This document shows positions 15,089 to 53,290 of a stretch of 64,000 nucleotides of DNA, piece by piece (the stretch's first letter is position 1; each line of letters opens with the position of its first letter). Source of the DNA: Nocardioides daphniae (lineage in GTDB: Bacteria; Actinomycetota; Actinomycetes; Propionibacteriales; Nocardioidaceae); assembly GCF_004777465.1 (NCBI RefSeq), contig NZ_CP038462.1:930001-994000 (forward strand), written 5' to 3'. The position numbers and the translations under genes are program-made. The notes beneath the pieces are model-generated. The model was not told the origin of the DNA. It did not search any database and saw only the letters and a program-made list of their open reading frames with translations.

Positions 15089-15117
15089 GCAGAACCGATG
15101 AGCAGGGGGAGCAGTCG

Positions 15118-15381
15118 ATGATGTGGGTCTTCGCCATCCTGGTGGGGCTGGTGCTGGGGGTCGTCGCCACCGTCGCCGCCGGCCGGGTGGGCTTCCTCCC
15201 GCCCGTCGAGACGCGCCTGGGCGCCACGCCGCCCGACGCGCCGCTGGAGCCCCGCGACCTGCGCGACGTACGTTTCTCGCTCGCCGTCCGTGGCTACCGG
15301 ATGGACGAGGTCGACGCCCTGCTCGACCGGCTCGCCGCCGAGTGGGAGCAGCGCGACGCGAGGCGCACCGAGGCACCCTGA
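15118..15381 (+). CDS. DivIVA domain-containing small membrane protein
   Basis: This 87-residue protein has an N-terminal membrane helix (WVFAILVGLVLGVVATVAAG) and a short C-terminal DivIVA-type segment (VRFSLAVRGYRMDEVDALLDRLAAEW). DivIVA proteins bind curved membrane and recruit cell-pole or septum factors; this truncated form has only the first coiled segment. ATG 15118 follows AGGGGGA. An ATG one codon later is possible. It follows the LOG gene by 29 bases and may share its transcript. Confidence 0.8.
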   Translation: MMWVFAILVGLVLGVVATVAAGRVGFLPPVETRLGATPPDAPLEPRDLRDVRFSLAVRGYRMDEVDALLDRLAAEWEQRDARRTEAP

Positions 15382-15454
15382 CGGTGGCCCGGGGCTGACG
15401 TGGGGGTGACCTGGGCGTGGCGCGTCCGGCGCTGCGTGGTGCATAGTGCGCCCT

Positions 15455-15877
15455 GTGTCACCTGAAATCATCGTCTGGGTCCTCAGCTTCCTCGGCGCCG
15501 TCGTCGTGGTGCTGACGCGCGTGCGCCTGGGCAAGGAGCTCGACGACGGCACCAAGCCGGTCAGCCGCACCATCCTGACCGTGCACACCAGCGTCGGCCT
15601 GGTGGCCGTGGTGGTCTGGACGCTCTTCCTCGTCTTCCCGCCGTCCAGCACGCTGGGCGGCGACCTGGTCGGGGTCGCGGGGCTGGGCCTGTGGTGGGTC
15701 ACCGTCTTCGCCGGCCTGGGCCTCCTGCTGCGGTGGCTGCCCTCGCGCGGGCGGCACACCAGCTCGCTCTCCGAGGACGAGTGGGCCGAGGGGCCGGGCC
15801 TGTCGCTGCTGGCCCACGCCGGGCTGCTGCTCGGCGTGCTGGTCTTCACCTGGGCCTTCGCCACCGGCACGGTCTGA
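15455..15877 (+). CDS. small integral membrane protein of unknown function
   Basis: This is a 140-residue protein with four predicted helices: residues 5-22, 48-67, 76-95 and 119-137. Short charged loops include RVRLGKELDDGTKPVSR. I do not recognise a family. The GTG at 15455 lies seven bases after a CATAGT hexamer, which looks like a -10 element of a leaderless transcript; a GTG at 15446 is the alternative start. It converges with the PaaX-like regulator. Confidence 0.65.
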   Translation: MSPEIIVWVLSFLGAVVVVLTRVRLGKELDDGTKPVSRTILTVHTSVGLVAVVVWTLFLVFPPSSTLGGDLVGVAGLGLWWVTVFAGLGLLLRWLPSRGRHTSSLSEDEWAEGPGLSLLAHAGLLLGVLVFTWAFATGTV

Positions 15878-39828: not shown

Positions 39829-41106
39829 ATGTCGACTTCGGCCACCTCGCGCGGCGTCATCGGGGCCCTCGACGCCGCGTTGCGTGACGCCGTACGCCGT
39901 GAGGGCGTCGACCCGCAGCGGGAGTCCGACGTCGTACGTCGCCTCGCCCGCCAGGTCGTGCGCGACCACGACGACCGCTCGCTCAGCGGTGCCGGCGCCC
40001 CGGTCGAGGACCCGGTCGCGGTGGTCGACGAGCTGGTCGCCGGGGTCGCAGGCTTCGGCCCGCTGCAGGTGCTGCTCGACGACCCCGACGTCGAGGAGAT
40101 CTGGATCAACGACCCGAGCCGGGTCTTCGTGGCCCGCCACGGACGTCATGAGCTGACCGACGTGCTGCTCGACAAGGGGCAGGTCAACGAGCTGGTCGAG
40201 CGGATGCTGAAGTCGAGCGGTCGGCGCCTCGACCTGAGCCGCCCCTTCGTCGACGCGATGCTGCCCGGGGGCCACCGGTTGCACGTCGTGCTGGAGGGGA
40301 TCAGCCGTGGCTTCTCCGCGGTCAACATCCGCAAGTTCCGCCTCCAGGCCGCGCGGCTCACCGAGCTGGTCGAGCTCGGCAGCCTGACCCCGGAGGCGGC
40401 CGCCTTCCTCGGCGCGTCGGTGAGGGCCGGGCTCAACGTTCTGGTGGCTGGCGGGACGCAGGCCGGCAAGACGACCCTCCTGAACTGCCTCGCGGCGGCG
40501 ATCCCGGGTGGGGAACGGGTGATCAGCGCCGAGGAGGTCTTCGAGCTCAAGTTCCCGCACCCCGACTGGGTGCCGATGCAGACCCGGCAGGCCGGCCTGG
40601 AGGGAACCGGCGAGATCAAGCTCCGCGAGCTGGTCAAGGAGGCGCTGCGCATGCGTCCCTCCCGGGTGCTGGTGGGTGAGGTGCGGGCCGAGGAGTGCCT
40701 CGACCTGCTCCTGGCGCTCAACTCGGGGCTCCCGGGGATGTGCACCCTGCACGCCAACAGCGCCCGCGAGGCGCTCACGAAGATGTGTACTCTGCCGCTC
40801 CTCGCCGGCGAGAACATCTCCGCCCGCTTCGTCGTGCCGACCGTGGCCAGCGCCGTCGACCTGGTGGTGCACCTGTCGCTGGACTCCCACGGGACGCGGC
40901 GGGTCTCCGAGATCGTCGCAGTGCCGGGCCGGGTCGAGGACGACATCATCGAGGTCGAGCCGATCTTCGAGCGGCGTGACGAGCAGCTGGTCTGGGTGGG
41001 TGGGATCCCGCCGCGGCCCGAGCGCTACCGCCGCATCGGCGTCGACGTGCACGCCCTGCTCAACGGGGCGCCCGACGTGGCGCGAGCCCCCGCCGGGGTC
41101 GGCTGA
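39829..41106 (+). CDS. tadA: Tad/Flp pilus assembly ATPase, CpaF/TadA type
   Basis: This 425-residue hexameric secretion ATPase powers Tad pilus assembly. The N-terminal domain has FGPLQVLLDDPDVEEIWINDPSRVFV, typical of CpaF. Walker A is LVAGGTQAGKTTLLN near residues 206-217, Walker B is RPSRVLVGEVRAEE, and the His box includes MCTLHANSAREALTKM. All are intact. ATG 39829 is used. The stop overlaps the tadB start, so the operon is tightly coupled. Confidence 0.93.
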   Translation: MSTSATSRGVIGALDAALRDAVRREGVDPQRESDVVRRLARQVVRDHDDRSLSGAGAPVEDPVAVVDELVAGVAGFGPLQVLLDDPDVEEIWINDPSRVFVARHGRHELTDVLLDKGQVNELVERMLKSSGRRLDLSRPFVDAMLPGGHRLHVVLEGISRGFSAVNIRKFRLQAARLTELVELGSLTPEAAAFLGASVRAGLNVLVAGGTQAGKTTLLNCLAAAIPGGERVISAEEVFELKFPHPDWVPMQTRQAGLEGTGEIKLRELVKEALRMRPSRVLVGEVRAEECLDLLLALNSGLPGMCTLHANSAREALTKMCTLPLLAGENISARFVVPTVASAVDLVVHLSLDSHGTRRVSEIVAVPGRVEDDIIEVEPIFERRDEQLVWVGGIPPRPERYRRIGVDVHALLNGAPDVARAPAGVG

Positions 41107-41795
41107 TGGGCGCGGTGGTCGGGCTCGGGTTCGGGATGGGCGCCCTGCTGGTCTGGGCGTCTTTCGCGTTGCCGCGCCCTGAACGCACGGAGGGCGCGCC
41201 CAGTCGTACGGCAGCTCTCCTGGCCCGCGCGGGGATGGGCAACGTCTCGGTCAGCAGCGTCACCGGGCTCTCGATCGCCCTGGGCGCGGTCGCCTTCCTC
41301 GTCGTCCAGGTCGTCTCGGAGACGTTCCCCGTCGCCCTGGTCTTCGGACTCATCGCCTCGTCCGGCCCGATGGCGGCGGTGCAGCGACGGGCGCGCGTCC
41401 GGCAGCAGGAGTTCGCCCAGGTCTGGCCGGAGGCCGTCGACAACCTCGCCTCCGCCGTCCGCGCCGGCCTGTCACTGCCCGACGCCCTGATCAGCCTGTC
41501 GCGCAGCGGCCCGCCGCCCCTGCGCGACGCCTTCGCCCAGTTCGGGATCGACTACCACGTGAGCGGGCGCTTCGGGGAGTCGCTCGACCGGCTGAAGGAG
41601 CGCCTCGCCGACCCGGTCGGTGACCGCATGGTCGAGGGCCTGAGGGTGGCCCGTGAGGTCGGTGGCGGCGACCTCGGTCGACTCCTGCGCAACCTCTCGC
41701 ACTACCTGCGCGAGGAGGCGCGGACCCGGTCCGAGCTCGAGGCGCGCCAGGCGTGGACCGTCAACGGTGCCCGGCTCGCAATCCGTGTCCAATAA
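41106..41795 (+). CDS. tadB: TadB-like pilus inner-membrane platform protein, 5' part interrupted by the mobile element
   Basis: This is the first 224 native residues of a type II secretion F-domain protein. It has membrane segments at the N-terminus and residues 55-90, and an F domain WPEAVDNLASAVRAGLSLPDALISL through LREEARTRSELEARQAWTVNGARLA. At 41778-41779 the frame passes into element DNA and ends after five foreign codons at TAA 41795. The missing part is at 53113-53290. Joining 41106-41779 with 53113-53290 gives 852 bases, exactly 284 codons. As it stands the protein lacks its last two membrane helices and is very probably inactive. Confidence 0.9.
   Translation: MGAVVGLGFGMGALLVWASFALPRPERTEGAPSRTAALLARAGMGNVSVSSVTGLSIALGAVAFLVVQVVSETFPVALVFGLIASSGPMAAVQRRARVRQQEFAQVWPEAVDNLASAVRAGLSLPDALISLSRSGPPPLRDAFAQFGIDYHVSGRFGESLDRLKERLADPVGDRMVEGLRVAREVGGGDLGRLLRNLSHYLREEARTRSELEARQAWTVNGARLAIRVQ
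41767..41792 (+). other. attL of the serine integrase
   Basis: The left junction consists of tadB sequence GTGCCCGGCTC, the GC crossover dinucleotide at 41778-41779, then the element half-site AATCCGTGTCCAA. The integrase promoter (TACAAT at 41813) and start codon begin within 50 bases, as usual for attP-linked integrases. Confidence 0.8.
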
Positions 41796-41826
41796 GATTG
41801 GTCCTGCTCGGATACAATCGAGACCT

Positions 41827-43494
41827 ATGACGGATCGACAGATGCGGGCGGTCCTCTACGCCCGAAAGTCCAACAAGCAGGACCGCACCGAAGAGCAGTC
41901 TGCCTCAGTCGGCGACCAGTTGACGCGCGGTCGCGCCTATGCGACCGAGCGCGGTTGGCAGGTGGTTGGCGAGTTCACCGACGACGGTAGGTCCGGCCTG
42001 CTCGATCGGACGAAGCGACCTGGCCTCGACTCGGCGCTCTCCCTCATCGAGGCAGGTGACGCCGACGTCATCGTCACGCTGTGGACCAGCCGCCTAAGTC
42101 GTGAGGAACGGCAGCGTGCCGAGATTCTCGACCTGCTCGATTTCCTCAAGGTCGAGTGGCACGCGGTTGCAGACGGTGGCCGGATTGACCGCAGCACGTA
42201 CGCCGGATACGTCACGTACGGCATCCACACGCTGTTCGACGTTGCCTACTCGAAACGGGTCGGGGAGAACTGGCGGAACGCCCATCAGAAGCGGATCGAC
42301 GCGGGCTTGCCCAAGTCCAGGTCACCGCGCTTCGGCTACCGCTGGGACGGCGACGAGCGGGCATTCGTGGTCCACGATGCCGAGGCCGACGCCGTGCGGG
42401 AGTTGTACCGGCGGTACACGCGAGGCGATGGCTTCACGCAGTTGGTGAAGTGGCTAAACGATGCAGGCTGGCGTGTTGCTGGCACCGAGAACCCGTGGAG
42501 CGTCCGGACCCTCAACCGCTTCATGGACAACGGCTTCGCAGCGGGGTTCATCAGTCGTGAGGACGACCTGCGCGATCTGCGCGGCGCACACGATCCGATC
42601 ATCTCGGAGACGGCGTGGCTCGCCTATCGTGCCGAGCGGGAGCGGCGTGCCGAGTTCGGCAAGAAAGCGTCAGGTGCTGGCGAACGGTGGTGGCTGGCTG
42701 GGGTGGTGAAGTGCGGCCGTTGCGGCGGGCCAACCTACGTGGACTCCTTCAAGCGACCGGACGGCAAGTCCTCCGTCATGTGCAGCAACCGCCGCAGCAA
42801 CCCGGACTCGTGCGCGGGGGTGACGATCCTCCGTGCGTACGTCGAGGACGCTGTAGGACTCTGGCTCGGTGGTCACCTTGACCAACTTGACGCGCTGTCC
42901 AAAGGCGAGCGACGGGCAACCGCCGATACCGCCGCAGACGTGTTCGGGGCGGCTGTCGCGGGTCGCGACAAGATCATCGACGGTCTGGCCGACCTCGAAG
43001 AGTCGAGGCTTCTACAGGACATTGAGCCCGCCGTGTATCGACGCACCAAGGACCGGCTGACCGCCCGCCTCCGCGACGCTGAGCGAGCGGTGAAGGAAGC
43101 AGCTGCATCGCTGGAAGCACCGGAGGCAGACACGACCCTGCTGCGCGGCTGCGCCACCGATGGGAAGTGGAACGCTGACGGACGAGCCGCCTTGCGCGGC
43201 GTGCTGGCTCGCGTCGAGGTCGGCAAGGACGCGTTGACGATCCTGCCCGTGATCGGGGAGCCGGTGACGTTGGCTCGGTCGGCGATGCACGGCCGCTGCA
43301 AGATCGACGGCTGCGGAAAGCGGGAGCGCACCAAGGGTCTGTGCACGTCCCACTCGATGCGCGCACGCAACCTCGGCATCCTCGATGAACTGGCGCGCCG
43401 AGTCGCTGAGTCCGTTGAGGCTCCCGGCCCCACGATCACCGTCGAGCAGGTTGACGCCCTCTTTGCTTCGGCGCACGAGGCTGCGTCTGCGTGA
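41827..43494 (+). CDS. large serine recombinase (integrase)
   Basis: This 555-residue site-specific integrase catalyses attP x attB recombination. The resolvase domain (1-150) has the nucleophile in VLYARKSNK (Ser15) and the conserved Arg region LWTSRLSREERQR. The recombinase domain follows (FGYRWDGDERAF). A zinc ribbon near 293-325 has KCGRCGG and CSNRRSNPDSC, and a coiled coil lies at 395-450. The C-terminus has an extra Cys-x4-Cys...Cys-x2-His motif (CKIDGCGKRERTKGLCTSH) not typical of all family members. A TACAAT -10 lies eight bases before ATG 41827, so the mRNA is leaderless or nearly so. It sits 47 bases from the attL crossover. Confidence 0.95.
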   Translation: MTDRQMRAVLYARKSNKQDRTEEQSASVGDQLTRGRAYATERGWQVVGEFTDDGRSGLLDRTKRPGLDSALSLIEAGDADVIVTLWTSRLSREERQRAEILDLLDFLKVEWHAVADGGRIDRSTYAGYVTYGIHTLFDVAYSKRVGENWRNAHQKRIDAGLPKSRSPRFGYRWDGDERAFVVHDAEADAVRELYRRYTRGDGFTQLVKWLNDAGWRVAGTENPWSVRTLNRFMDNGFAAGFISREDDLRDLRGAHDPIISETAWLAYRAERERRAEFGKKASGAGERWWLAGVVKCGRCGGPTYVDSFKRPDGKSSVMCSNRRSNPDSCAGVTILRAYVEDAVGLWLGGHLDQLDALSKGERRATADTAADVFGAAVAGRDKIIDGLADLEESRLLQDIEPAVYRRTKDRLTARLRDAERAVKEAAASLEAPEADTTLLRGCATDGKWNADGRAALRGVLARVEVGKDALTILPVIGEPVTLARSAMHGRCKIDGCGKRERTKGLCTSHSMRARNLGILDELARRVAESVEAPGPTITVEQVDALFASAHEAASA

Positions 43495-43535
43495 CCAAGG
43501 TCAGTAGCTACCAAGTCGGTTATAGTTGACCTTGG
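43495..43535. repeat. 9-base inverted repeat between integrase and XRE gene
   Basis: CCAAGGTCA (43495-43503) and TGACCTTGG (43527-43535) form perfect arms around a TTATAGT -10-like sequence. It is a candidate operator for the XRE protein encoded next, or a stem-loop ending the integrase transcript. Confidence 0.55.
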
Positions 43536-43649
43536 CCCTAGCGGTACAGCCAGACGAGCCACCTGATCAGACCGGGTGAGTGACGAGGCCGACGTAACGA
43601 CGTAAGACGTTGAAACTGTCGGCACGTGGTCTGGCTAGGAGGCACAAGG

Positions 43650-43907
43650 GTGCCTAACGCAAGAGGAGAGACCAAGTACGGTCCTCAGCCCATTCGAGTC
43701 GTGCTGTTCGAGCGCGGCGTCCCTGGTTCCGAGTTCGCTGACCAGATCGGGATCAACCGTCTGCACGTGAGCAAGGTTAACCGGGGTCACATCATCCCGT
43801 CACAGGCATACATCGACGCCGCGTGCGATGCGCTCGCACTGCCTGCTGATCGGTTGTTCAGCCAGGAAGCGCTCAATGCTTCCTACTACCGCGGGGTCAA
43901 GCGATGA
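43650..43907 (+). CDS. XRE-family helix-turn-helix regulator
   Basis: This 85-residue Cro/CI-type protein has one HTH: VLFERGVPGSEFADQIGINRLHVSKVNRGHIIPSQAYIDAACDAL. It is the likely switch protein of the element, controlling integrase or replication genes. GTG 43650 follows AGGAGG at the right distance; GTG 43626 is rejected because that ribosome-binding site would lie inside the gene. Its stop overlaps the next small gene. Confidence 0.82.
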   Translation: MPNARGETKYGPQPIRVVLFERGVPGSEFADQIGINRLHVSKVNRGHIIPSQAYIDAACDALALPADRLFSQEALNASYYRGVKR

Positions 43908-44023
43908 GCCCCGCAAAGAAGACGGCGACCACGCTGTACGCGGTCGCCGTCCTGAACGGGTTCGCCGGCCCGTTCTTCGCTGTCCTGCTGATCGCCGCTC
44001 TAATGAAGGGCGGTGCTGCATGA
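43904..44023 (+). CDS. 39-residue single-pass membrane protein
   Basis: This very small gene is overlapped at both ends by neighbours (ATGA at 43904 and at 44020), which is strong evidence of real translation. The product has a basic N-terminus SPAKKTATT and one membrane helix (LYAVAVLNGFAGPFFAVLLIAAL). Function unknown; it could be a coupling or membrane-targeting peptide of the element. Confidence 0.6.
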   Translation: MSPAKKTATTLYAVAVLNGFAGPFFAVLLIAALMKGGAA

Positions 44024-46200
44024 CCAACGGCAACGGTATCCCCCCGACCGCCAGCGGGGTCCCCGCTGATGTGTTGTGGGTCGTCCAGAAGATTGGGTGG
44101 CCGGTCTTCCCGGTGTACGAGATCGAGCGCGGTCGGTGCGCCTGCGGGAAGATCGACTGCAAGTCGCCGGGCAAGCATCCGCGCAGTCAGAACGGTGTGG
44201 GCGACGCGACCACGGACATGACCAAGATCGAGACCTGGGCGGCTCGCTTCCCACAGGCCAACTGGGCTGCATCGCCGGTCGGTGGCGTCGTAGTTGACAT
44301 CGACCCGCGTAACGGCGGGTTCGACTCGATGGGCGAATGGGACGTGTCCCTTCCGCACACGACCACGGTCTTGACCGGCGGTGGCGGCAAGCACCTCTAC
44401 TTCCTGCTCCCGGAAGGCGTCACCGTGGGCAACCGAAACAACTGGCTGCCGGGTGTGGATGCCAAGACGGTCGGTGGCTACGTGCTCTTGCCAGGCAGCA
44501 ACCACACCAGCGGTGGCGTCTACCAGTGGCAGACCCAGTGTGAGCCGGTCCCCGCGCCGGACGGCCTGATCGCCGCACTCCGTGAACGCAAGGGGTTGGG
44601 CTTGCCCGGAACCGACGTCCTGCTGGACGGCGTGCCGGACGGTCAGCGCGACGACATGATCTTCCGTGCTTGCTGCCGATGGTGGCGGCAGTTCCGCCAT
44701 CACGAGGACAACGGGCTCTCGGCAGTGACGGCGCGCGCGCTGGAGATGGGCCGTAGATGCGAGCCGCCGTTCAGCGACAAGGAGATCGCCACGAAGGTGA
44801 AGTCGGCTGCTCGTTACGCACTGGAAGAGCCACGGTTCCGCCACACCGACGACGGGAACGCACAGTTGTACGCGGAGCAGCACGCGGGGTCGTTGAAGTT
44901 CACCAACGACTCCAAGACGTGGTTCGCGTGGGACGGGCGGCGTTGGGTCCGCGACGCCGATTTGACCGCGCTGCATAGGGCCAGGCTGACGGCGAGGTCG
45001 CTCGTGGACTATGCGATGGACCTCAACAGCGAGGATGCGGGACGCGGAGCCGCGATCGGCTGGGCCAGGACCAGCCTCAACAGTGGCCGGATCAAGGCGA
45101 TGCCGGAACTCGCGAAGTCGGATGAGCGAATCCACGCGAAGAACGCGGACTTCGACGCACGACCCGACCTCCTCAACACGCCCACCGGGGTCGTGGACCT
45201 GAGGACGGGCAAGTTGCTCCCGCACGACCGCGACCAGTTGCACTCCAAGATGACCACCGTCGGGTACGACCCTGATGCCTCGACGGAGTGGTGGGAGAGT
45301 TTCGTCCACTGGGCGATGGTCGGTCGCCCTGACCTGATCGAGTTCTTGCAGCGGTCTGTGGGCTACGCACTCACCGGCGAAACCTCAGAGCAGGCGATCT
45401 GGCTCCATCACGGTGGCGGAGCCAACGGCAAGTCCACCTTCGTGGAGGCGATCAGCGGCGTCATCGGTGACTATGCAGCTACCGCCGACCCGGAGTTGCT
45501 GACGGGCGGTCACACGACGGGCCTGGCCGACCTCCACGGCAAGCGCTTTGTCGCGCTGAGCGAGGTCAAGGAGGGGGCCAAGGTCGATGAGCAGCGCTTC
45601 AAGATGCTCTCCGGTGAGGACAAGATCAAGGCGCGGTTCCTCTACAAGGACTTCTTCGAGTTCAAGTCCACGGCGACGATCTTCTGGGCGATGAACCACC
45701 TGCCCAAGATCGGCGACGACACGTATGGCATGTGGCGGCGCATCTTCGCCATGCCGTGGGACGCGACCCTGCCACGCGAGCAGCAGAAGAAGGGCGTGGC
45801 GGACTGGGCGATCAAGACCCACGGCGCGGGCATCCTGAAGTGGGCGGTACAGGGTGCGGTGGAGTGGTACGCCAGCGGGTTGGTTGTTCCGGCTGACGTG
45901 CAGCGCAAGACAGAGGCGTACAAGAACCGTGAGGACACCATGTCGTCCTTCTACGCCGAGCACTTCGTCAAGGAGGTAGACGCGAAGATGCCCGCCACCG
46001 ACGTGGTGGCGGCGTACAACTCATGGTGCAGGTCTGAGGGTGTCACGGACAAGGAAAGGCTCGGCTCGACGACCGTCAAGCGCAAGTTCGAGGAACGGCT
46101 CGGATTGGAGCGCAAGCGCATCATGATCGACGGCCAGAAGGTCGCAGGTTACGAGGGTTACCGAGCCGTCGGGCTTGACGCTGTGCGGTCGTGGTCGTGA
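44020..46200 (+). CDS. primase-polymerase/D5-type helicase replication protein
   Basis: This 726-residue replication initiator is typical of satellites and phages. The N-terminal prim-pol domain (about 20-190) has the catalytic pair in VVVDIDPRNGG and the GGGGKHLYF His motif, and begins with a Cys cluster RCACGKIDCKS. A helical primase C-terminal region follows. The D5_N domain (about 290-430) precedes a superfamily 3 helicase with Walker A HHGGGANGKSTFVEAI (about 462-477) and ALSEVKEG. The C-terminal end has a winged-helix look (SWCRSEGVTDKERLGSTTVKRKFEERL). It allows the element to replicate on its own after excision. Confidence 0.93.
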   Translation: MTNGNGIPPTASGVPADVLWVVQKIGWPVFPVYEIERGRCACGKIDCKSPGKHPRSQNGVGDATTDMTKIETWAARFPQANWAASPVGGVVVDIDPRNGGFDSMGEWDVSLPHTTTVLTGGGGKHLYFLLPEGVTVGNRNNWLPGVDAKTVGGYVLLPGSNHTSGGVYQWQTQCEPVPAPDGLIAALRERKGLGLPGTDVLLDGVPDGQRDDMIFRACCRWWRQFRHHEDNGLSAVTARALEMGRRCEPPFSDKEIATKVKSAARYALEEPRFRHTDDGNAQLYAEQHAGSLKFTNDSKTWFAWDGRRWVRDADLTALHRARLTARSLVDYAMDLNSEDAGRGAAIGWARTSLNSGRIKAMPELAKSDERIHAKNADFDARPDLLNTPTGVVDLRTGKLLPHDRDQLHSKMTTVGYDPDASTEWWESFVHWAMVGRPDLIEFLQRSVGYALTGETSEQAIWLHHGGGANGKSTFVEAISGVIGDYAATADPELLTGGHTTGLADLHGKRFVALSEVKEGAKVDEQRFKMLSGEDKIKARFLYKDFFEFKSTATIFWAMNHLPKIGDDTYGMWRRIFAMPWDATLPREQQKKGVADWAIKTHGAGILKWAVQGAVEWYASGLVVPADVQRKTEAYKNREDTMSSFYAEHFVKEVDAKMPATDVVAAYNSWCRSEGVTDKERLGSTTVKRKFEERLGLERKRIMIDGQKVAGYEGYRAVGLDAVRSWS

Positions 46201-46752
46201 TTTCCTCGGTTCGGCCGGTCCAGTCCGAAAAAACTGGTCCGTCGATCAACTCTTCTAGAGTCACTCTTTCGAGAGGAGAGTTGGTCGAAGGACCGAAAAA
46301 ATCGGACCGTGGTTTCGAAGCCAATACGCGGGCGCTCGCGCGCAAGACGGTTGCTGCCAGCCACATCCACGCCGGGGTCCCTGAAACTGCCGTGAGGCCC
46401 GATGACGGCCAGACGTCCCGTGCTGCAAACGAAGCCGAGGACTGGGCCATTTGCCTGGACGCGTGGCCCGAACTTCGCGTCCTTGCCGATGAGGTGAAGG
46501 ACTCCACCGACTGGGAAGACGTCGTGACCCGGCTGTTGGACCTCGACCTTCCCGTAGAGGTCTACGACCTTGCGGTGGACGTGCTGCATGAACGGGTGGC
46601 GCTCCCGCCCGTTGCCGGAGTCGCGGTACCCGTGGCGCGAGGCAGGGCTGAGCAGGGCCACCCTGTTGGACGAGTTGCTAAGACTGGGCTACACCGGCTC
46701 CGTCAGCAAGACGGCCAGCGACCTCTGGCGACTGATCCTCGAACGTCGCTGA
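46197..46752 (+). CDS. element protein of unknown function, probable frame break near 46600
   Basis: GTG 46197 overlaps the helicase stop (GTGA). The first frame gives about 135 convincing residues (AANEAEDWAICLDAWPELRVLADEV and STDWEDVVTRLLDLDLPVEVYDLAVDVL). Good coding then shifts to the frame ending at 46752 (LSRATLLDELLRLGYTGSVSKTASDLWRLILERR). That ending resembles residues 34-60 of the protein at 47604, suggesting a shared fold. Either one base is miscalled near 46590-46640 or two genes overlap. If unshifted, the first frame runs to 46949. An imperfect inverted repeat spans about 46236-46287. Confidence 0.45.
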
Positions 46753-46879
46753 GACGGGCCAGAAGACGATCTGGCGGGCTCGGAGGATCACCACGGGTCA
46801 ACTACCAGCCGGTGACTGTTGACCCGCCAGACGACCTCTCAGCACGTGACCCCGCTTTCTGGAGAAAGCGAGTTCGCGC

Positions 46880-47431
46880 TTACGGCTTGCGCACCCACTC
46901 GTCGATCATTTTCTTGGGCATCCCGAGGGACTCCATGGCCCTCACTTGAGCCTCATAGTTGCTGATCTCCTTCAACGTGGAGTCCCGCCTCGCTCGCGCG
47001 TCCCGCGCCTTCTTGATGCGATCCACCCGACCGCCGTAGACGATTGCGACGACTGCTGAGGCAACCGCGGGAAGAGACAGGAGGGCGCTAGTCGAGTAGT
47101 CGACCGACTCTGGGGTGATGCTGTCCAGAGCGAGCCAGGCGAAGTACACGAAGGCGACCAAACTCAGTACGACCATGGCCCAGGTCGCGAAGTACGTGCC
47201 CTTGTCTCGGCCGCTGTTCCTTGCCGCGTAGAACTCGACCTCGTAGAGCAACTGCGCCCGCAACGCCTTGCCCTCGGGCGACTCGGCTGCCGTCTCCTTG
47301 GTCGTCTCAATCAGCAACTTCAGTTGCTGCACCTCGCGCGTCTGGCGCGTAGCGGTCAGTCGCGCCGCAAGTGCGCTGATGACCGCGACTGCGACGGTGG
47401 CTAGAGGGGCTGCGTAGTCCGAGATGTTCAC
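46880..47431 (-). CDS. membrane protein of unknown function, element cargo candidate
   Basis: This is a 183-residue protein on the opposite strand to its neighbours. One helix is at the N-terminus (ATVAVAVISALAARL), then a cytoplasmic coiled segment (TRQTREVQQLKLLIETTKETAAES), two further helices (FATWAMVVLSLVAFVYFAWLAL and SLPAVASAVVAIVYG), and a basic C-terminus with a coiled region. GTG 47431 is preferred; longer starts give a low-complexity extension. An isolated gene facing against the replication block is a common place for cargo or immunity genes in satellites. No family recognised. Confidence 0.65.
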   Translation of the reverse strand: MNISDYAAPLATVAVAVISALAARLTATRQTREVQQLKLLIETTKETAAESPEGKALRAQLLYEVEFYAARNSGRDKGTYFATWAMVVLSLVAFVYFAWLALDSITPESVDYSTSALLSLPAVASAVVAIVYGGRVDRIKKARDARARRDSTLKEISNYEAQVRAMESLGMPKKMIDEWVRKP

Positions 47432-47561
47432 GGCGGAGGACTGTATCGGCGAGCGACGAGTGCGAGGGGCGGAATCGTGCAATGGACGCCCGAAGCCCGC
47501 TGGTGCGGGTCTGTGCATCCCGGTTTACATCGCCACATCGACCTGCCGTAATCGACTCGAA

Positions 47562-47577
47562 CCGAACGCTTGTTCGG
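47562..47577 (+). promoter_or_regulatory. LexA-like SOS box
   Basis: CCGAACGCTTGTTCGG is a perfect palindrome with six-base arms and contains the actinobacterial LexA core CGAAC-N4-GTTCG. It is 27 bases upstream of the ATG at 47604, in front of the two-gene unit ending with the second recombinase. DNA damage could thus switch on this unit. Confidence 0.65.
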
Positions 47578-47603
47578 GCGACGGAACGATGGAAGGAACC
47601 GAC

Positions 47604-47999
47604 ATGGCTACCGCAACCGCACGTAAGACCGCCGCCAAGAAGGCAGCGACGAAGGCCCCCGCTACCCCTGCCAAGGAGGCGCCCGTCAAGGGCCAGCACC
47701 GCTCGGCGCTGCTGGACGAACTGAAGGCGGCGGGATGGACCGGCCCTACCTCCTACACCGCTACGGCTCTGCGGGAGACCCTCCTGCCGTGGGTGAAGGC
47801 AGGGTGCCCCGCTGGCAACGAAGGGATCCCAGCCGGTGCCATGAACCACGCGCACCCCAAGCCGAAGGTCGAGCGCAAGACGCGCGCCAGCAAGGCGCGC
47901 GTCGCAGCGTTGGGGGACGTCGCCACGCTCATCCAAGGTGGCGCATCGCTCGCTGACGTCAAGAAGTGGCTGGCTGAGCAGCTGCAGCACGCCTCATGA
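47604..47999 (+). CDS. small basic protein with Ala/Lys-rich N-terminus
   Basis: This 131-residue protein begins with a histone-like tail (RKTAAKKAATKAP). A short helical module follows: HRSALLDELKAAGWTGPTSYTATALRETLLPW. It shares the pattern R-x-x-LLDEL...GxTG...TA with the end of the protein at 46197-46752. ATG 47604 has GGAAGG upstream and is 27 bases after the LexA-like box. The stop overlaps the recombinase start. It could be a DNA-binding accessory factor, for example a recombination directionality factor, but this is inference. Confidence 0.65.
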   Translation: MATATARKTAAKKAATKAPATPAKEAPVKGQHRSALLDELKAAGWTGPTSYTATALRETLLPWVKAGCPAGNEGIPAGAMNHAHPKPKVERKTRASKARVAALGDVATLIQGGASLADVKKWLAEQLQHAS

Positions 48000-48718
48000 C
48001 CGTCCGCGCCAACGCATCGCGGCCCGTGCCCTACCGAGGTGCGGGCCGCCGTGCCGTCATCTACCTCCGCACCTCTGGTCTTGGACAGGTGGACCGTGAA
48101 GGACCCCGCGTGCAGGAGGCTGACTGCCGCCGCTACGCCGCCGCCCTCGGCATGACTGTCGTTGCTGTGCTGCACGAGGCAGCCGTCACGGGTGACGCAG
48201 ACGACCGCCCTGCCTTCGCTGACGCTCTTCTTGCCATCGAGGACGGCGAAGCGGACGCGGTGGTGGTCGCCACCCGCTCCCGACTGGCGCGCAATCTGAT
48301 GGTGCAGGAGGCGCTACTGCGACGCGCCTGGGACCTTGGCGCGGAGGTGCATGAAGCCGACTACGGGTTGATCCCGGAGGACGACCCCGACGACCCCACC
48401 CGGACGTTCGTTCGCCAGATGCTCGGTGCCGTTGCCCAACTGGACAAGGCCATGACCGTGCAGAGGCTCCGCAAGGCCCGCCAGCAGAAGGCGGCGCGCG
48501 GCGAGAAGGCCGTAGGTCGCTACAAGTTCGGGCAAGGCGGCAAGGACCACGCAAGGGAGGCGGTTGTCCTCGCCGACCTCCGCGCCCGCCTCGACGCGGG
48601 CCAGACCCCCGAGCAGGTCGCGTTCGCACTCAACGCCCTGCCGTACGACCACTGGCGGACCCGCTCGGGCAAGCCCTGGACCCCGGCGAACGTGAAGCGG
48701 GTGGCCTCGTTGGCGTAG
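47996..48718 (+). CDS. serine recombinase, resolvase/invertase type
   Basis: This 240-residue recombinase has the resolvase catalytic domain: RRAVIYLRTSGLGQVDREGPRVQEADC (nucleophile Ser27), then AVVVATRSRLARNLMVQEALL with the active-site Arg pair. The region EDDPDDPTRTFVRQMLGAVAQLDKAMTVQRLRKARQQK matches the long E helix, and a C-terminal HTH-like region follows. It is much shorter than the integrase at 41827 and is the second serine recombinase of the element. It may resolve replication multimers or help excision. ATG 47996 overlaps the previous stop. Expression may depend on the LexA-like box. Confidence 0.88.
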   Translation: MTVRANASRPVPYRGAGRRAVIYLRTSGLGQVDREGPRVQEADCRRYAAALGMTVVAVLHEAAVTGDADDRPAFADALLAIEDGEADAVVVATRSRLARNLMVQEALLRRAWDLGAEVHEADYGLIPEDDPDDPTRTFVRQMLGAVAQLDKAMTVQRLRKARQQKAARGEKAVGRYKFGQGGKDHAREAVVLADLRARLDAGQTPEQVAFALNALPYDHWRTRSGKPWTPANVKRVASLA

Positions 48719-48997
48719 ACGGCTTCTACGCGAGGTCGGGCCTCAGGGAGCGAGAACCTTCGGGCCGTTGCGAGGACCGTCGGCGTAGATCCCCAAAGAT
48801 CGGCCAGCTAGCCGACTTCATCATCGAAGAACGCGCCATGCTTGACCTTGTGGAAGTTTTTTTGAGAGTTACGTACACCATTGCAGAGGCCATGCCCACA
48901 ATTGGGTAAGAGGCTTCAAACTCCCAGGTCAAGTGGCATTTGTCAGCAACTACAAACGCGCAAACTGACGCGTACACACCACTGCTAACTTTGTAGA

Positions 48998-49011
48998 CCC
49001 CTCCGAAGGGG
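48998..49011. terminator. short GC-rich stem-loop, possible terminator
   Basis: CCCCT-CCGA-AGGGG forms a compact hairpin, followed by GGTT. It lies in the gene-free stretch 48719-49103, which is distinctly AT-richer than its surroundings. Apart from this hairpin, I see no repeats or convincing ORF there. It could hold the promoter of the next gene or a replication origin. Confidence 0.4.
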
Positions 49012-49103
49012 GGTTACGAGTTGCGCGATCCGCTTGCGTTCGATTGGGAGTCCCCCTAGGGTTCTCGTCAGGTGGGAGCGGTCCCAAGAAGGAGGTGCAC
49101 ATC

Positions 49104-49859
49104 GTGAGCAGCGACAGCTTCGAGTTCGAGGAAGTCACGCTCCCCGTGGGGGATGACGTGAGGCAGGGGTCCGGTGCGCCCTACATGTCGTACAAGGGGT
49201 TTCTGAACCTGCTGACCCGGTTCTCCGAAGAGGGGTTGCCGGGGCGCTTCGATGGCAGCTACTTCGGGAACGCCAGCGGCAGCCTCGTCGCACAGGTGCG
49301 AGGCTCCATGCGCTTCCTGGACCTCATCGACGAGGAGAAGCACCCGACGGACCTGCTCAAGACCATCACCGAGGCGAGCGAGGACGAGCGCAAGCAGTAC
49401 CTCAAGATGATCTTTGAGGAGAAGTACGCCGACGCCCTCGCCCTGAGCAAGAACGCCACTGCTGGTCAGTTGGCCGAAGTCTTCCGCGACCGAGGCCTCT
49501 CCGGTGCCACGGTGCAGAAGGCGATCACGTTCTTCCTTGGCATGGCCGATGACGTGGGCGTCGAGTTGAGCCCGCACTTCAAGAAGGGCCGCGTCGCCGC
49601 CAGCAACGGTGGGAGCCGAAAGCGACGTGCCGCGAAGACGGCTCCCGCTGCCCCGACTCCCGCCCCTACTCCCCACGTGGTCGAGCCGAAGGTGTCGTCC
49701 GTCGAGGCGCAGAAGGCCGCCTACGTGAACATGCTGATGGATCTCGCTACGAAGGACAACGCCGACGCGAACTCCCAGCAGACGTTGCTCGACCGAATTG
49801 AGAAGGCGCTGGGGATCGGTGCCCCTGGCGCAGGGGGAGGACCTACAGACTTGCCCTGA
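49104..49859 (+). CDS. DUF5343-like protein
   Basis: This is a 251-residue protein. Residues about 25-170 match the DUF5343 pattern: MSYKGFLNLLTRFSEEGLPGRFDGSYFGNASG, RGSMRFLDLIDEEKHPTDLLKTI and LSGATVQKAITFFLGMADDVGVELSPHFK. A basic then Pro/Ala-rich linker (RKRRAAKTAPAAPTPAPTP) leads to a final helix (KAAYVNMLMDLATKD). DUF5343 proteins often occur in mobile elements and have no assigned function. GTG 49104 has AAGGAGG upstream. It is convergent with the leftward structural genes. Confidence 0.75.
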   Translation: MSSDSFEFEEVTLPVGDDVRQGSGAPYMSYKGFLNLLTRFSEEGLPGRFDGSYFGNASGSLVAQVRGSMRFLDLIDEEKHPTDLLKTITEASEDERKQYLKMIFEEKYADALALSKNATAGQLAEVFRDRGLSGATVQKAITFFLGMADDVGVELSPHFKKGRVAASNGGSRKRRAAKTAPAAPTPAPTPHVVEPKVSSVEAQKAAYVNMLMDLATKDNADANSQQTLLDRIEKALGIGAPGAGGGPTDLP

Positions 49860-50100
49860 CGGGAATGCGGGGGTCCACACCCTGCTCCAACCCAGATGGG
49901 AAGAAGGAGACGGCGAACGTACGCGCTGGCTCCAACGATCGGCCGGTGGCGTCAGTCTTGCGAGGGCGGGCGTCACCGGCCACCTTCTTCAGTGGCTTGC
50001 GCACATAGTAGCCACGTATCGCGTGTGCCGACTAGGTAACAGGTCACATCCGCCATGCTGCGGACCGTACTCGCGACCACCGACACTCTTGCGCCCTCGG

Positions 50101-50147
50101 CGCGACGGGCGCGAACCGGCCTCTCGCCATCGTTCGCGCCCGTCGCG
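50101..50147. terminator. 16-base perfect inverted repeat, bidirectional terminator candidate
   Basis: CGCGACGGGCGCGAAC (50101-50116) pairs perfectly with 50132-50147 around a 15-base loop. It lies between the convergent genes ending at 49859 and 50169, in the 309-base gene-free stretch 49860-50168. No clear ORF is seen there. Confidence 0.6.
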
Positions 50148-50168
50148 GGTATCTGTCCCGACTACGAG

Positions 50169-50483
50169 CTACGACCCGTCAGAGGGCATCTCAGGACACC
50201 GAACCACGAAGGTGTGTCCGGCCCCCAGGGCCTCGCCGCACTGGACGCAGATGAGATCCTCGCCAGTGTCCTCCGGACAGTCCTCCGGACAGTCCGCCTT
50301 GTGCGGCTCCCGGCTGAGGTCAACCTCGCAGCAACAGCACGTGGTGAAGTCGACGCGGAACTGCGCGCCCTCAAGAGACTTGAGCGCCCCGCCCCTCCGG
50401 TGGGCGGTGAACTCAACGGCGCCGAGATGCGCAGGCGGCACGCCCAAGTAGTCGGCTACTGCCGCGCGAATCCTGTCAGTCAT
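50169..50483 (-). CDS. small Cys-rich phage-type protein
   Basis: This 104-residue protein has an N-terminal helical part (RIRAAVADYLGVPPAHLGAVEFT), a CCCC cluster with nearby Cys/His (TTCCCCEVDLSREPHKADCPEDCPED), and a Cys-x2-Cys pair (LICVQCGEALG). It probably binds zinc. ATG 50483 follows AGGAGG. It is separated from the capsid operon by two strong hairpins, so it is a separate unit. Function unknown. Confidence 0.65.
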   Translation of the reverse strand: MTDRIRAAVADYLGVPPAHLGAVEFTAHRRGGALKSLEGAQFRVDFTTCCCCEVDLSREPHKADCPEDCPEDTGEDLICVQCGEALGAGHTFVVRCPEMPSDGS

Positions 50484-50642
50484 GTGAAGCCTCCTGTGCT
50501 TCGGAGTCGTTGGACGACTCAAACGAAGCAGCGGGGTCCCTCACGGCTGAATGGCCCGACACGCCATCGCTTACCGCGTGCTGGTCACTGCGTGAGCAAG
50601 CATGCAGGACGGAAACCTGTTGCGCAAGGCGAAGCGCTGGTT

Positions 50643-50733
50643 CCCCGCCCGACCGGCCCATGAGCGAAACCGGTCGGGCGGGGTGATCGTGTGCCGAGTG
50701 CGGGGCGGCGGCACTGGCAGCCCCGCACTCGGC
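50643..50733. terminator. two consecutive strong stem-loops after the leftward structural operon
   Basis: The first stem is CCCCGCCCGACCGG (50643-50656) with 50670-50683. The second is GCCGAGTGCGGGGC (50693-50706) with 50720-50733. Both have perfect 14-base arms. They lie just downstream of the TerS-like gene (read leftward) in the 268-base gap 50484-50751, and look like tandem terminators. Confidence 0.6.
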
Positions 50734-50751
50734 GTACCCGGCACGGGCACG

Positions 50752-51420
50752 TCATCCGGCGTCGAGATCGTCCCGGATGTGCTTGGGGATGCGAGCAGCC
50801 TGCTTGGCTGCCGCGGCATCCGTAGGTGCGTCGAACATCGACGGCTGGCGGTGCGCGTAGGGACCCGGCTCACCGAAGGCTCTCATCGAGACGACCTCAG
50901 CGTCGGGGGTGTGACTCTCAGCGAAGGCGTCGTAGGCGTCCTGAACGGGGTCGAGAACCTCGCCCCGAACAACCTCCCCTGCCTCGATCGCGGGAGGCGC
51001 TGCAGGATGATCAACACGCCTGGGGGCAAGCCCCTCGGGGTCGCCCAGCAGGTTGCGGAACAACTTCTCGACCGGGTCGGTCTCGATGTCCACCACGACC
51101 TTCTTGGCGTCCTCCATCCCCGTTGCTTTCATGACCATCTCGGCAGCCTTCAACCTCGCCGCATCCGAGGACTTGGGGTTGTTGAGGATGCCCTCCACGA
51201 CCTCACGCGCCTGGTCCGCAAGGTTGACGTACCGCTCTTTGGCGCGCTTCTGGACGTTGGGCAGGTGACCCCCGTGCTTGTCGCAGACGATGGACCCTGC
51301 GAGCGCCTCACGCTTGCAGCGAGTCCCAGCCTGCGTCGGTGCCGCGCAGCGGACGACGGGCGAACCGGCCCACTCCATCTGTTGCCACCGCTCTTCCGAG
51401 TGGCTGATCCGCCGTCCCAT
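50752..51420 (-). CDS. zinc-binding small-terminase-like protein
   Basis: This is a 222-residue protein. The N-terminal region has a Cys/His module (VRCAAPTQAGTRCKREALAGSIVCDKHGGHLPNVQKRAKERY), followed by helices (AREVVEGILNNPKSSDAARLKAAEMVMKATG) and a disordered acidic tail. This layout is seen in actinophage proteins annotated as small terminase subunits or terminase-associated. A TerS-like role, selecting element DNA for packaging, would fit a phage satellite. The assignment is tentative. ATG 51420 lies three bases after the upstream gene's stop, in one operon with the capsid gene. Confidence 0.6.
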   Translation of the reverse strand: MGRRISHSEERWQQMEWAGSPVVRCAAPTQAGTRCKREALAGSIVCDKHGGHLPNVQKRAKERYVNLADQAREVVEGILNNPKSSDAARLKAAEMVMKATGMEDAKKVVVDIETDPVEKLFRNLLGDPEGLAPRRVDHPAAPPAIEAGEVVRGEVLDPVQDAYDAFAESHTPDAEVVSMRAFGEPGPYAHRQPSMFDAPTDAAAAKQAARIPKHIRDDLDAG

Positions 51421-51423
51421 CGC

Positions 51424-51831
51424 TCACTCCTTCCACTGAACCGGACCGAAGTTGTCGTTCAGGTAGTCCACGCACATCAGGCAGACGTGGAACTCGATGG
51501 CGGCGGTACCAGCAGGGACCAGGACTGTGCGGCCGGTGGTGCTGACGTGGTGTCCGTCGCAGCGGTCGCAAATGGTCCACACGTCGGCGGTGGGACGGTC
51601 GGTGTCGATCCCGTGGACCTTGCGTGCCTCGAACGCTCGTTGAGCGGGAAGCACGCGGACGTGCTCGGCTTCCAGCGGTTCGTCGTGGCCGAACGTGTGA
51701 CGACCGTTGGCGGCGAACTCGACAATGCGGCCAATCAGTTCGTCCTCGGTCAGGTGGGCGTTGCCGCCGCACAGGAGGTTGACCTCCTGCACGGCAGCAA
51801 CGACGTTGTCCGCGTGGGTCTGAGTGCTCAT
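51424..51831 (-). CDS. zinc-ribbon protein of unknown function in the capsid operon
   Basis: This 135-residue protein has two Cys-x2-Cys pairs (TICDRCDGHHVST and FHVCLMCVDYLNDN) forming a likely zinc ribbon, and an N-terminal helical part (NVVAAVQEVNLLCGGNAHLTEDELIGR). ATG 51831 is 13 bases after the capsid gene stop. It is probably a phage-type accessory protein; no named family recognised. Confidence 0.65.
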   Translation of the reverse strand: MSTQTHADNVVAAVQEVNLLCGGNAHLTEDELIGRIVEFAANGRHTFGHDEPLEAEHVRVLPAQRAFEARKVHGIDTDRPTADVWTICDRCDGHHVSTTGRTVLVPAGTAAIEFHVCLMCVDYLNDNFGPVQWKE

Positions 51832-51844
51832 GTCAGTACCTCTC

Positions 51845-52927
51845 TCAGAACGTCGGAGCGGTGTAGCTCGCGTTGGTGGTGACCTGCAGGACCGCAGCCG
51901 CGCCGCGGTGACGGACGCCGACGCCGAAGCCTCGGTTGTAGTACGAGTCGATCAGCGGGTAGTCGGGCGTCTTGCCCTTGACGATCCGCAGCCCCTGCAG
52001 GCTGGTCTGCACGTGCTCACGGAACGCAATCGGATTGCGTTCCGAGTTCGACCCGCCCGTCGCGAGGCAAGCCACGTAACCAGCAGGGATCAGCGGGTTG
52101 CTGACGATCAGGGCGTACCCGTACTGGCCGAGAACCTTGAGACCGTTGAACTGGCCGGAGGGGCGACTTCCCACCAGCGTCTCAGCGGTCAGGTACGGGG
52201 GCGCGTCGTCGGAGGCGATGAAGTCGAACTTGGCGCCGCTGCCCGAACGGAATCCAGCGATGACGTCGGCTTCCTCCGGGTTGGCGAGGACCACCAGCGT
52301 CTGGCCGTCCCCGTCGCCGTACCCGTGGTGCTTCACGGTGTCGACCAGGACCTCGACGTCCGCCGGGGCGAGGGCTGCCGTCCCGGTCGTGAGGTAGTGA
52401 CTGTGGGTCGAGGGGAACGTGGACCCGTTGTGCTCGGGCGGCGCCTTGCCGTCCGTTCCGTTCCACAGCGAGTAGACGGTCGTACCGTCCTCGTTGACGC
52501 CGTTAACGTTGCTGAACAGCCGGTTCATGATCGCCTTGAACGTGAGCCGGTTGTCCGCCTCGAGCGCGCCGTTGTGAACCGCAGCAACCTGGTTTGCCGA
52601 CGCGTCGGCGAGGTACTTCCACGTGAAGCGGGTCGCGAGGTCGTACCACTTGAAGGTGTAGCCCATCGGCAGCATTCCTGCCTCTAGACGGGCGCCCTTG
52701 GGGACGCCGTACTCGGACGCTTCCTCGAAGTCCGAGGTGCCGCCCGGCGTCTGCAGGACGGTCTCGCCCTTGGCCGTGGTCTGGAAGGTGAACAGGTCAA
52801 CCAGCGCGCTGCGCTTCTGGTTGGCGAGGTCCAGGGTCGAGATGAACTCGTCCCAGATGCTGTTGATGTCGGTGCCGTCGGCGAGGACCTTCAAGACGTC
52901 GCCGGCAGCGTTGTATCCGCGTGCCAT
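51845..52927 (-). CDS. HK97-type major capsid protein
   Basis: This 360-residue protein closely follows the layout of actinophage major capsid proteins: YNAAGDVLKVLADGTDINSIWDEF, RSALVDLFTFQTTAKGETVLQTPGG, FEEASEYGVPKG, KWYDLATRFTWKYLADASA, ALEADNRLTFKAIMNRLF, and a C-terminal YYNRGFGVGVRHRGAAAVLQV strand. There is no long N-terminal scaffold domain and no protease gene, so assembly may need helper functions. ATG 52927 follows GGAGA. It is the first gene of the leftward operon, and 184 bases of non-coding DNA separate it from attR. Confidence 0.85.
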   Translation of the reverse strand: MARGYNAAGDVLKVLADGTDINSIWDEFISTLDLANQKRSALVDLFTFQTTAKGETVLQTPGGTSDFEEASEYGVPKGARLEAGMLPMGYTFKWYDLATRFTWKYLADASANQVAAVHNGALEADNRLTFKAIMNRLFSNVNGVNEDGTTVYSLWNGTDGKAPPEHNGSTFPSTHSHYLTTGTAALAPADVEVLVDTVKHHGYGDGDGQTLVVLANPEEADVIAGFRSGSGAKFDFIASDDAPPYLTAETLVGSRPSGQFNGLKVLGQYGYALIVSNPLIPAGYVACLATGGSNSERNPIAFREHVQTSLQGLRIVKGKTPDYPLIDSYYNRGFGVGVRHRGAAAVLQVTTNASYTAPTF

Positions 52928-53097
52928 GGGGTCTCCTTGGAGATGAGAGTCGTGTCGGGGTCACGCCCTATCCCTCCGGGACACGGGTCGTGCGGTGAGT
53001 CTTTGGCGCTGCCTATGGACTCGGGGCGACGGCGGGACCTCTGGTCAACCTGCCGTCCGTCGAAGTCGATAGTAGCCGAGATGGAAAGACCTTCTTT

Positions 53098-53126
53098 TTA
53101 GACACGGTTGGCGGTCTCCGCCCCGT
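53098..53126 (+). other. attR of the serine integrase
   Basis: The right junction consists of the element half-site TTAGACACGGTTG, the GC dinucleotide at 53111-53112, then tadB sequence GGTCTCCGCCCCGT. The element half-site is the inverse of the attL half-site at 10 of 13 positions, so the circular attP is an imperfect palindrome around GC. Confidence 0.8.
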
Positions 53127-53290
53127 GGGTCGTGCTGCTGATCATGTCCTTCCAGTCCGACGTGATCACGCGCTACTCCTCGGCCACCGGTGTGCTGGTG
53201 CTCGCCGTGGGGGCGGCCGCCTGCACGGGGGCGTACGCACTGATGACGCGCATCGGTCGGCTGCCCGTCGAGCGAAGGATCCTGGCGTGA
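53113..53290 (+). pseudogene. tadB: tadB 3' part, displaced by the mobile element
   Basis: This encodes the last 58 residues of TadB: VSAPWVVLLIMSFQSDVITRYSS, a second helix GVLVLAVGAAACTGAYALM and the tail RIGRLPVERRILA. It has no start or ribosome-binding site of its own. It joins the 5' part (41106-41779) in frame once the element is removed. The stop overlaps the tadC start, so tadC translation may also suffer while the element is present. Confidence 0.9.

Follow-up and report, generated by a model that had tools for sequence, protein, structure and literature searches.

A candidate phage satellite with its own capsid protein in a Tad pilus gene of Nocardioides daphniae

Phage-inducible chromosomal islands (PICIs) are small phage satellites (~8-18 kb) that carry an integrase, a regulator, a primase-helicase and a small terminase subunit (TerS), the regulator being typically an Stl/AlpA-type pair with a divergent control region. 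Capsid-forming PICIs (cf-PICIs) are reported to encode a major capsid protein (MCP), protease, portal, connectors, large terminase subunit (TerL), TerS and HNH, and to borrow only tails (PMC10690885). In Mycobacterium, candidate PICIs including phiRv1 and phiRv2 have been defined by the combination of an integrase with an MCP (PMC10654092). Here we analyze a stretch of 64,000 nucleotides from the actinobacterium Nocardioides daphniae (contig NZ_CP038462.1, positions 930,001 to 994,000; the window), in which an initial annotation made from the letters alone had recognized a stripped-down capsid-encoding phage satellite at positions 41780-53112. Our analysis supports this reading: with a probability of about 0.65, the 11,333-bp element is a satellite of a family that supplies its own head shell and packaging specificity and would obtain the rest from a helper phage.

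The element and its conserved module

At its right end, on the reverse strand, the element holds three genes in the transcribed order MCP-ZnR-TerS (Table 1), ZnR being a zinc-ribbon protein that is the hallmark of the family. The MCP, already named as such in the initial annotation, is confirmed by its matches to the phage family phrog_3990 and to the solved phage capsids 8saj and 8giu. Its relatives were found in 153 phage records, its identity to phage MCPs is at most 51% among the matches listed, and it is full length, with 50 columns invariant across 13 sequences. The single TerS sequence reaches only phrog_10899 (E 2.4e-7), and a family profile was needed for the match to solved small terminases (7joq and 6w7t) that bears out its earlier description as TerS-like. 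ZnR (~120-170 amino acids (aa) across the family) combines a helical N-terminal part with a C-terminal CxxC...CxxC ribbon and gave no significant match in Pfam, PHROG or PDB sequences, or by fold in PDB and BFVD (model of fair quality, pLDDT 80.7). An origin of the module as chance open reading frames (ORFs) was rejected, as it recurs in 17-18 of the 18 loci described below. Two other candidates were dropped: a 426-aa frame (50602-51882, +) considered as a gene, which runs antisense to TerS, ZnR and the MCP end and has no family match, and a shorter MCP N-terminus considered as a mark of satellites, since an upstream start exists in some of them.

The element is inserted precisely in a tadB-like (T2SSF) pilus gene. 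Its removal joins 41106-41779 to 53113-53290 and restores an uninterrupted TadB-like protein, whose junction lies in the conserved stretch WTVNGARLA/VSAPW (slash at the junction) and aligns to tadB without a gap in 9 of the 9 matching loci (16 other loci searched). Because of this gap-free alignment, the limits proposed by the initial annotation can be taken as exact. The GC fraction is ~0.65 inside the element and ~0.72 outside. No tRNA gene was found in the 64-kb window (ARAGORN), and the host genome is a single contig of 3.56 Mb.

Our frame-by-frame scan of the element (Pfam and PHROGs) failed to identify any TerL, portal, protease, scaffold or tail gene, which upholds the earlier claim that these are lacking. 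The remaining frames of at least 300 aa (50602-51882 on the plus strand, 43897-45309 and 49068-49976 on the minus strand, the latter two compared with PHROGs only) run opposite to named genes, and none of them matches a known family. The companion claim that no lysis gene is present holds for above-cutoff matches but is softened by weaker ones: the membrane protein at 46880-47431 resembles actinobacterial Holin-X below the cutoff and, weakly, a spanin family (Table 1) and is a weak candidate for such a gene. Wollypog and Kurnik, two phages, served as the source of probes for the same five kinds of gene, and these probes were negative in all 18 full-length MCP loci within the stretches examined; in the other 17 loci, unrelated TerL or portal families are excluded only as far as ORF scans reach. 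In these scans, none of 20 large ORFs without an assignment, located inside the elements or close to them (some of them outside), matched a TerL or portal family in PHROGs at E 1e-6; they matched replication, integrase, metabolic or unknown families, or none.

Table 1. Features of the element and its flanks (positions in the window)
Feature	Position	Strand	Evidence
T2SSE (TadA/CpaF-like) pilus ATPase gene, intact, adjoining the element; most sister elements interrupt this gene	39829..41106	+	PF00437 E 2.4e-35; Walker A at residue 208
tadB-like (T2SSF) gene, 5' part	41106..41779	+	PF00482 E 1.9e-11; empty-site alignment
Integrated element, 11,333 bp	41780..53112	.	Gap-free junction in 9/9 loci with a match; GC drop
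Large serine integrase, 555 aa	41827..43494	+	phrog_95 E 6.9e-75; PF00239, PF07508, PF13408, scored on longer frame 41653-43494
XRE-like regulator, weak	43650..43907	+	HTH_31 E 0.0043, 17.8 bits (cutoff 27); phrog_2439 E 5.6e-5
39-aa membrane-like ORF overlapping the primase start	43904..44023	+	Sequence reading; no PHROG match
PrimPol-D5 helicase replication protein	44020..46200	+	PF09250 E 1.4e-29, PF08706 E 9.4e-25, PF19263, PF08708 on longer frame 43828-46200
Uncharacterised ORF, limits unsure	46191..46949	+	Residues 76-145 44% identical in G157 element
Membrane protein, weak Holin-X resemblance	46880..47431	-	PF07332 19 bits (cutoff 28.4); Rz-like spanin family E 0.006
Lys/Ala-rich protein, 131 aa	47604..47999	+	47% in G157 element; no PHROG match
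Small serine recombinase, 240 aa	47996..48718	+	PF00239 E 1.8e-23, phrog_125; similar ORF in 17/18 capsid loci
DUF5343-like protein, possible cargo	49104..49859	+	PF17278 21 bits (cutoff 27); relatives in G097, G051
Cys-rich ORF, 104 aa	50169..50483	-	Best PHROGs E 0.1
TerS, N-terminal zinc motif	50752..51420	-	Family profile: 7joq E 8.7e-10, 6w7t E 2.1e-7; phrog_10899
ZnR, zinc-ribbon protein, 135 aa, family hallmark	51424..51831	-	17/18 loci
MCP, 360 aa	51845..52927	-	phrog_3990 E 2e-109; solved capsids 8saj E 1.6e-83, 8giu E 1.3e-79
tadB-like gene, 3' part	53113..53290	+	Empty-site alignment

The large serine integrase and the prim-pol/helicase of the initial annotation both proved correct. 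The former shows Resolvase, Recombinase and Zn-ribbon domains (its start is judged to be ATG 41827, and its tail contains a weak HNH-like stretch, phrog_1271 E 4e-4), and the latter PrimPol, D5_N and DUF5906 domains. The proposed XRE switch is present as a gene, but its match falls short of the cutoff; it is a single XRE-like gene with the same direction as the primase. Beyond what had been listed before, the present analysis adds ZnR, the small serine recombinase, the DUF5343-like gene and the tadB insertion.

Related loci in bacteria and phages

The capsid was found in 14 of 215 Nocardioides genomes. In 11 of them it is full length, at 13 places in total, and G169, G121 and G032 gave partial matches (G and L numbers label genomes and loci). 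A family-level search (11 of 294 genomes, several of them already found) added two full-length matches (G282, G326) and a weak one (G233), and an order-level survey (4 of 293 genomes) gave nothing new outside the genus. Scanning a single genome of each species yielded 14 loci, 10 of them in Nocardioides and the other four in Micromonospora endolithica, Mycolicibacterium sp. BiH015, an Intrasporangiaceae metagenome-assembled genome and Aeromicrobium endophyticum (G326). The total is 18 distinct full-length MCP loci in bacterial genomes, leaving out G169 (at a contig edge, with partial MCP, ZnR and TerS), G121 (an MCP fragment) and the weak partial matches in G032 and G233.

Profile searches detected TerS in all 18 of these loci and ZnR in 17, so that the module recurs in actinobacterial genomes, which the initial annotation had proposed to search for the same gene order; the MCP, ZnR and TerS profiles were built partly from loci later counted, and G097, G282, G053 and the set-aside G169 matched the ZnR model though outside its building set. 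In the Mycolicibacterium locus ZnR was not found by these searches, and TerS is inverted and ~5 kb away. The integrases of the family are mostly serine-type (those of the window and G157 are 24% identical), with phrog_1 integrases, which we take to be tyrosine-type, in G090, G053, L058 and L065, and the replication genes also differ between loci sharing the module. G140 is the sole locus with a gene 50% identical to the Kurnik 'minor capsid protein' (phrog_5042, a family with no assigned function) beside the MCP. Our guess is that it encodes a decoration protein, and its being kept next to the MCP fits the formation of real shells.

Viral loci with a related MCP contained another structural gene in 18 of 18 and 78 of 78 cases, i.e. 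in 96 loci on 93 distinct contigs (three contigs were counted twice: L030/L209, L031/L212 and L032/L215), the second of these scans covering the best 80 of 102; ZnR was found in 0 and TerS, weakly, in 2 of the 78. The gene order in the phages read (scaffold, then MCP, then adaptor or tail genes) is unlike that of the element. The TerS profile revealed no relative in viral contigs and none in plasmids. In addition, 18 phage records match TerS in part, and the three regions read had no adjacent TerL (in SM23 it is ~1.7 kb away). A 35-row tree separates satellite from phage MCPs by one branch (support 90/98). Simple counting gave pN/pS values of 0.24-0.56 for MCP (6 pairs), 0.34-0.71 for TerS (4 pairs) and 0.31-0.65 for ZnR (4 pairs), and satellite capsids are, by this measure, shown to be under purifying selection.

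The 12 tad-inserted MCP elements with resolved ends measure 11,038-12,778 bp (coefficient of variation (CV) 4.8%), as compared with 3,912-18,190 bp (CV 40%) in a mixed set of 11 further elements inserted in tad genes (permutation p 0.0005, Levene p 0.005); ends are good to some tens of bases (less at one end for G172B). The comparison leaves out G146, which runs into a contig end, as well as G097 and the four loci with a phrog_1 integrase. We read this near-constant length as support for, not proof of, a capacity limit, which would probably reflect a shell below the T=7 of the phage relatives, or multimer packaging.

Insertion in pilus genes is widespread in the family, 13 of the 18 full-length MCP loci being inside tad genes. 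The window element occupies tadB and the other 12 the T2SSE (TadA/CpaF-like pilus ATPase) gene, six of them after WINDPS (residue 96/97), five at Walker A between GGTQAGK and TT (~214) and one near residue 295 (the place in G172B is less exact, and the T2SSE of G282 is a divergent copy, 39-47% identical). In G146 the two T2SSE halves are on different contigs, one of which also holds the element. Next to the G097 element there is a piece of T2SSE, and an undamaged copy of the gene occurs in the vicinity; no tad match was obtained for the four phrog_1-integrase loci. Two capsid-bearing elements lie at different sites of one pilus gene in both G172 (L041/L042) and G199 (L039/L040).

Among the matches listed for 147 Nocardioides genomes, the T2SSE ortholog (at least 67% identity) is full length in 88, only partial in 42, cut by a contig end in 1 and without a match in 16. 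The partial cases thus make up about a third of the genomes with the gene (42/131) and show recurring cut points, the sorting having been done by hand and some partial cases in draft genomes possibly being contig ends. In all nine loci where both halves were recovered (L135-L143, with elements of 4-18 kb; the other 4 of 13 regions fetched, L144-L147, are half-loci), an ORF resembling large serine recombinases is located at or near one junction. Judging from these sequences, the Tad/Flp pilus ATPase gene looks like a general insertion hotspot in Nocardioides. Natural transformation of Micrococcus luteus is reported to require tad genes (PMC4322843), and competence genes are reported to be interrupted by mobile elements in other species (PMC4774983). 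We hypothesize that tad insertions may protect the elements from curing by transformation; an alternative benefit might be the loss of a pilus serving as a phage receptor.

Several side observations concern the sister elements and the wider occurrence of TerS. Some of the sisters carry defence-like cargo, namely methylase/specificity fusion, TIR effector, PDC-M30A-like and DndB-like genes (L041:2735-4825 and 14708-15823, L047:7046-8602, L049:7457-8881). A 23-bp near-palindromic non-coding stretch is identical in 2 of 13 elements (L128:19594-19616 and L039:6005-6027) and absent from the window; it recurs with 2 mismatches in a third element (G140) and with 4 mismatches at two further places, and is a possible origin or control site. 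TerS matches were obtained in 33 of 209 Nocardioides genomes, including loci without the phrog_3990 capsid (L110-L118 and L120, judged for this capsid only), as in ordinary PICIs; in L111, for example, a phrog_1 integrase and a serine recombinase are nearby, as in capsid-less satellites. Another element in the satellite-carrying G097 (L119:4664-19194) combines a TerS-like gene, a phrog_1 integrase, and decoration-like and tape-measure genes, but the 10 of its ORFs that were scanned included neither a portal nor a TerL. It is possibly another satellite type or a damaged prophage.

Proposed helper dependence and its alternatives

In the cycle that we propose, a tailed phage would infect the cell or be induced, and the element would excise and replicate via its own PrimPol-D5 protein. 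Its MCP would form shells on the portal of the helper, whose scaffold and protease may also take part. The TerS of the element would steer the helper's TerL to the DNA of the element, and the heads would receive their tails from the helper; ZnR would act in head assembly or couple the shell to the terminase. This model is supported by the precise insertion, the integrase, the replication protein, the small serine recombinase and the conservation of MCP-ZnR-TerS alongside differing integrases and replication genes. A broader proposal, which we advance tentatively and with less confidence, is that Nocardioidaceae and a few other Actinomycetota might hold a distinct satellite class whose sole contributions to the helper's assembly line would be TerS, the shell protein and a new head factor of the zinc-ribbon type, the product being small chimeric heads; by settling in Tad/Flp pilus genes it would disable a pilus through which actinobacteria can take up DNA, and would thereby keep the host from curing itself by transformation.

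A number of observations weigh against the satellite reading. The helper, the particles and the transfer are what we infer from the genes of the element, and no scaffold gene was found in it. Searches of the window's genome with PF20441, PF03237 and PF03354 gave no TerL, and the helper is therefore presumably external. No cos or pac site was identified, the DNA comparison of 13 elements showing mainly coding similarity. The TerS structure model is poor (pLDDT 64.6), and its top fold match (7joq) is non-significant (E 0.52). TerS and ZnR are fast-evolving (pN/pS 0.71 for TerS of the window vs G157), no satellite appeared among the 96 viral loci (the second scan covering the best 80 of 102), and the length test sets one family against a mixed set, with alignment ends taken as element ends. 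Finally, a 108-row tree with 73 further viral sequences (quick method) needs two changes for the satellites; a single satellite clade is not rejected in it (p-AU 0.74), and the satellite capsids appear compatible with one clade.

The most serious competitor, though in our judgment an unlikely one, is an interference module, in which the MCP, ZnR and TerS of a satellite or small integrative element would poison or shrink helper heads and misdirect the terminase as a defence, the DNA of the element itself being carried in shells of the helper or spreading in some other way. TerS relatives in loci without this MCP, the defence-like genes of several sister elements and the lack of any scaffold or portal found would suit such a role. 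On the other hand, a full-length MCP with so many invariant columns, together with one minor-capsid gene, exceeds the needs of a decoy, the element length is near-constant, and an identity of at most 51% to the phage MCPs listed makes co-assembly less likely. That the element is a decayed prophage, a deletion remnant keeping MCP and TerS by chance, is considerably less probable. It could account for the few structural genes, the phage-like genes, the foreign GC and the broken MCP in the G121 locus, but not readily for a module found in 17-18 of 18 loci with different integrases and replication genes, for a gene order unlike that of the phages read, or for purifying selection and precise ends. 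The initial annotation had itself named a prophage remnant and an encapsulin as outcomes that would undo its reading. As to the former, we saw this capsid in no complete prophage of a sister genome: each of the 13 full-length places in Nocardioides has TerS, and none of them shows a related portal or TerL within the sequence examined.

We regard as very improbable a head-only transfer agent, i.e. a tailless, gene-transfer-like vehicle made of MCP, ZnR, TerS and host parts with no phage helper. The failure to find a tail gene in the 18 loci and a ZnR with no assigned function would agree with it, yet no portal or packaging motor was found in the element, the three-family search gave no TerL in the window's genome, and no host substitute is known. 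An encapsulin or other cellular compartment in place of a viral capsid is hardly credible: encapsulins have the HK97 fold in common with such capsids, but the MCP finds its best matches in phrog_3990 and in the Patience and Adjutor phage capsids, and it has no Pfam match at all, hence none to encapsulins.

Comparison with described systems

As a satellite in the general sense, the element is integrated and has integrase and replication genes without a full set of particle genes. Like the candidate PICIs of Mycobacterium, it is actinobacterial and resembles an incomplete phage with integration machinery and an MCP in one phage-like region, and some of those candidates have serine integrases, and some have replication and terminase genes (PMC10654092). 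Unlike in the present family, any MCP qualifies there, and some members carry scaffold genes or toxin systems; the accessible text of that paper makes no mention of a uniform MCP-ZnR-TerS module, of ZnR or of tad insertion. Our literature search (titles, abstract beginnings and mostly open papers) returned, among the matches listed, no satellite family with only MCP and TerS and none in Nocardioides. The suggestion of the initial annotation that such a satellite may be undescribed thus holds for this family in the literature searched, but capsid-plus-integrase candidate PICIs, some with serine integrases, had already been published for Mycobacterium.

With its 11,333 bp, integrase, primase-helicase, TerS and weak regulator, the element has the traits of a PICI, and it departs from the classic type in having its own MCP. 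PICIs with their own TerS, such as the Staphylococcus aureus pathogenicity islands (SaPIs), are likewise small integrated islands using TerS for packaging redirection, but they reshape helper shells with scaffold-type proteins where the element carries an MCP instead (PMC10690885). It shares with cf-PICIs its own capsid and TerS, as well as helper dependence, which is reported for cf-PICIs (PMC10690885) and presumed here from the genes; however, of such particle genes our scans of the element found just the three of the module, MCP, ZnR and TerS, and no portal, protease, connectors, TerL or HNH packaging endonuclease of its own, which places it outside that group. The Streptomyces satellites MulchRoom and MiniFlayer are also actinobacterial with their own capsid genes but, unlike the element, encode TerS, TerL, portal, MCP, scaffold and adaptor and have linear genomes with terminal repeats and without key replication genes (PMC10690885). 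Phages Patience (8GIU) and Adjutor (8SAJ), which have T=7 capsids (PMC10635136), possess MCPs homologous to that of the element; these are 400-403 aa long and matched from residue 27-31, as against 360 aa, matched from residue 4, in the satellite.

The tad-gene hotspot may be perhaps a larger surprise than the satellite itself. Within the series of known systems, the element fills a gap between those that reshape a helper capsid and those that make complete heads, and introduces ZnR as a new conserved protein of the head module. It suggests that shell and packaging specificity can form a stable unit, and provides a natural case for testing whether the shell of one virus and the portal and motor of another can be joined in a head.

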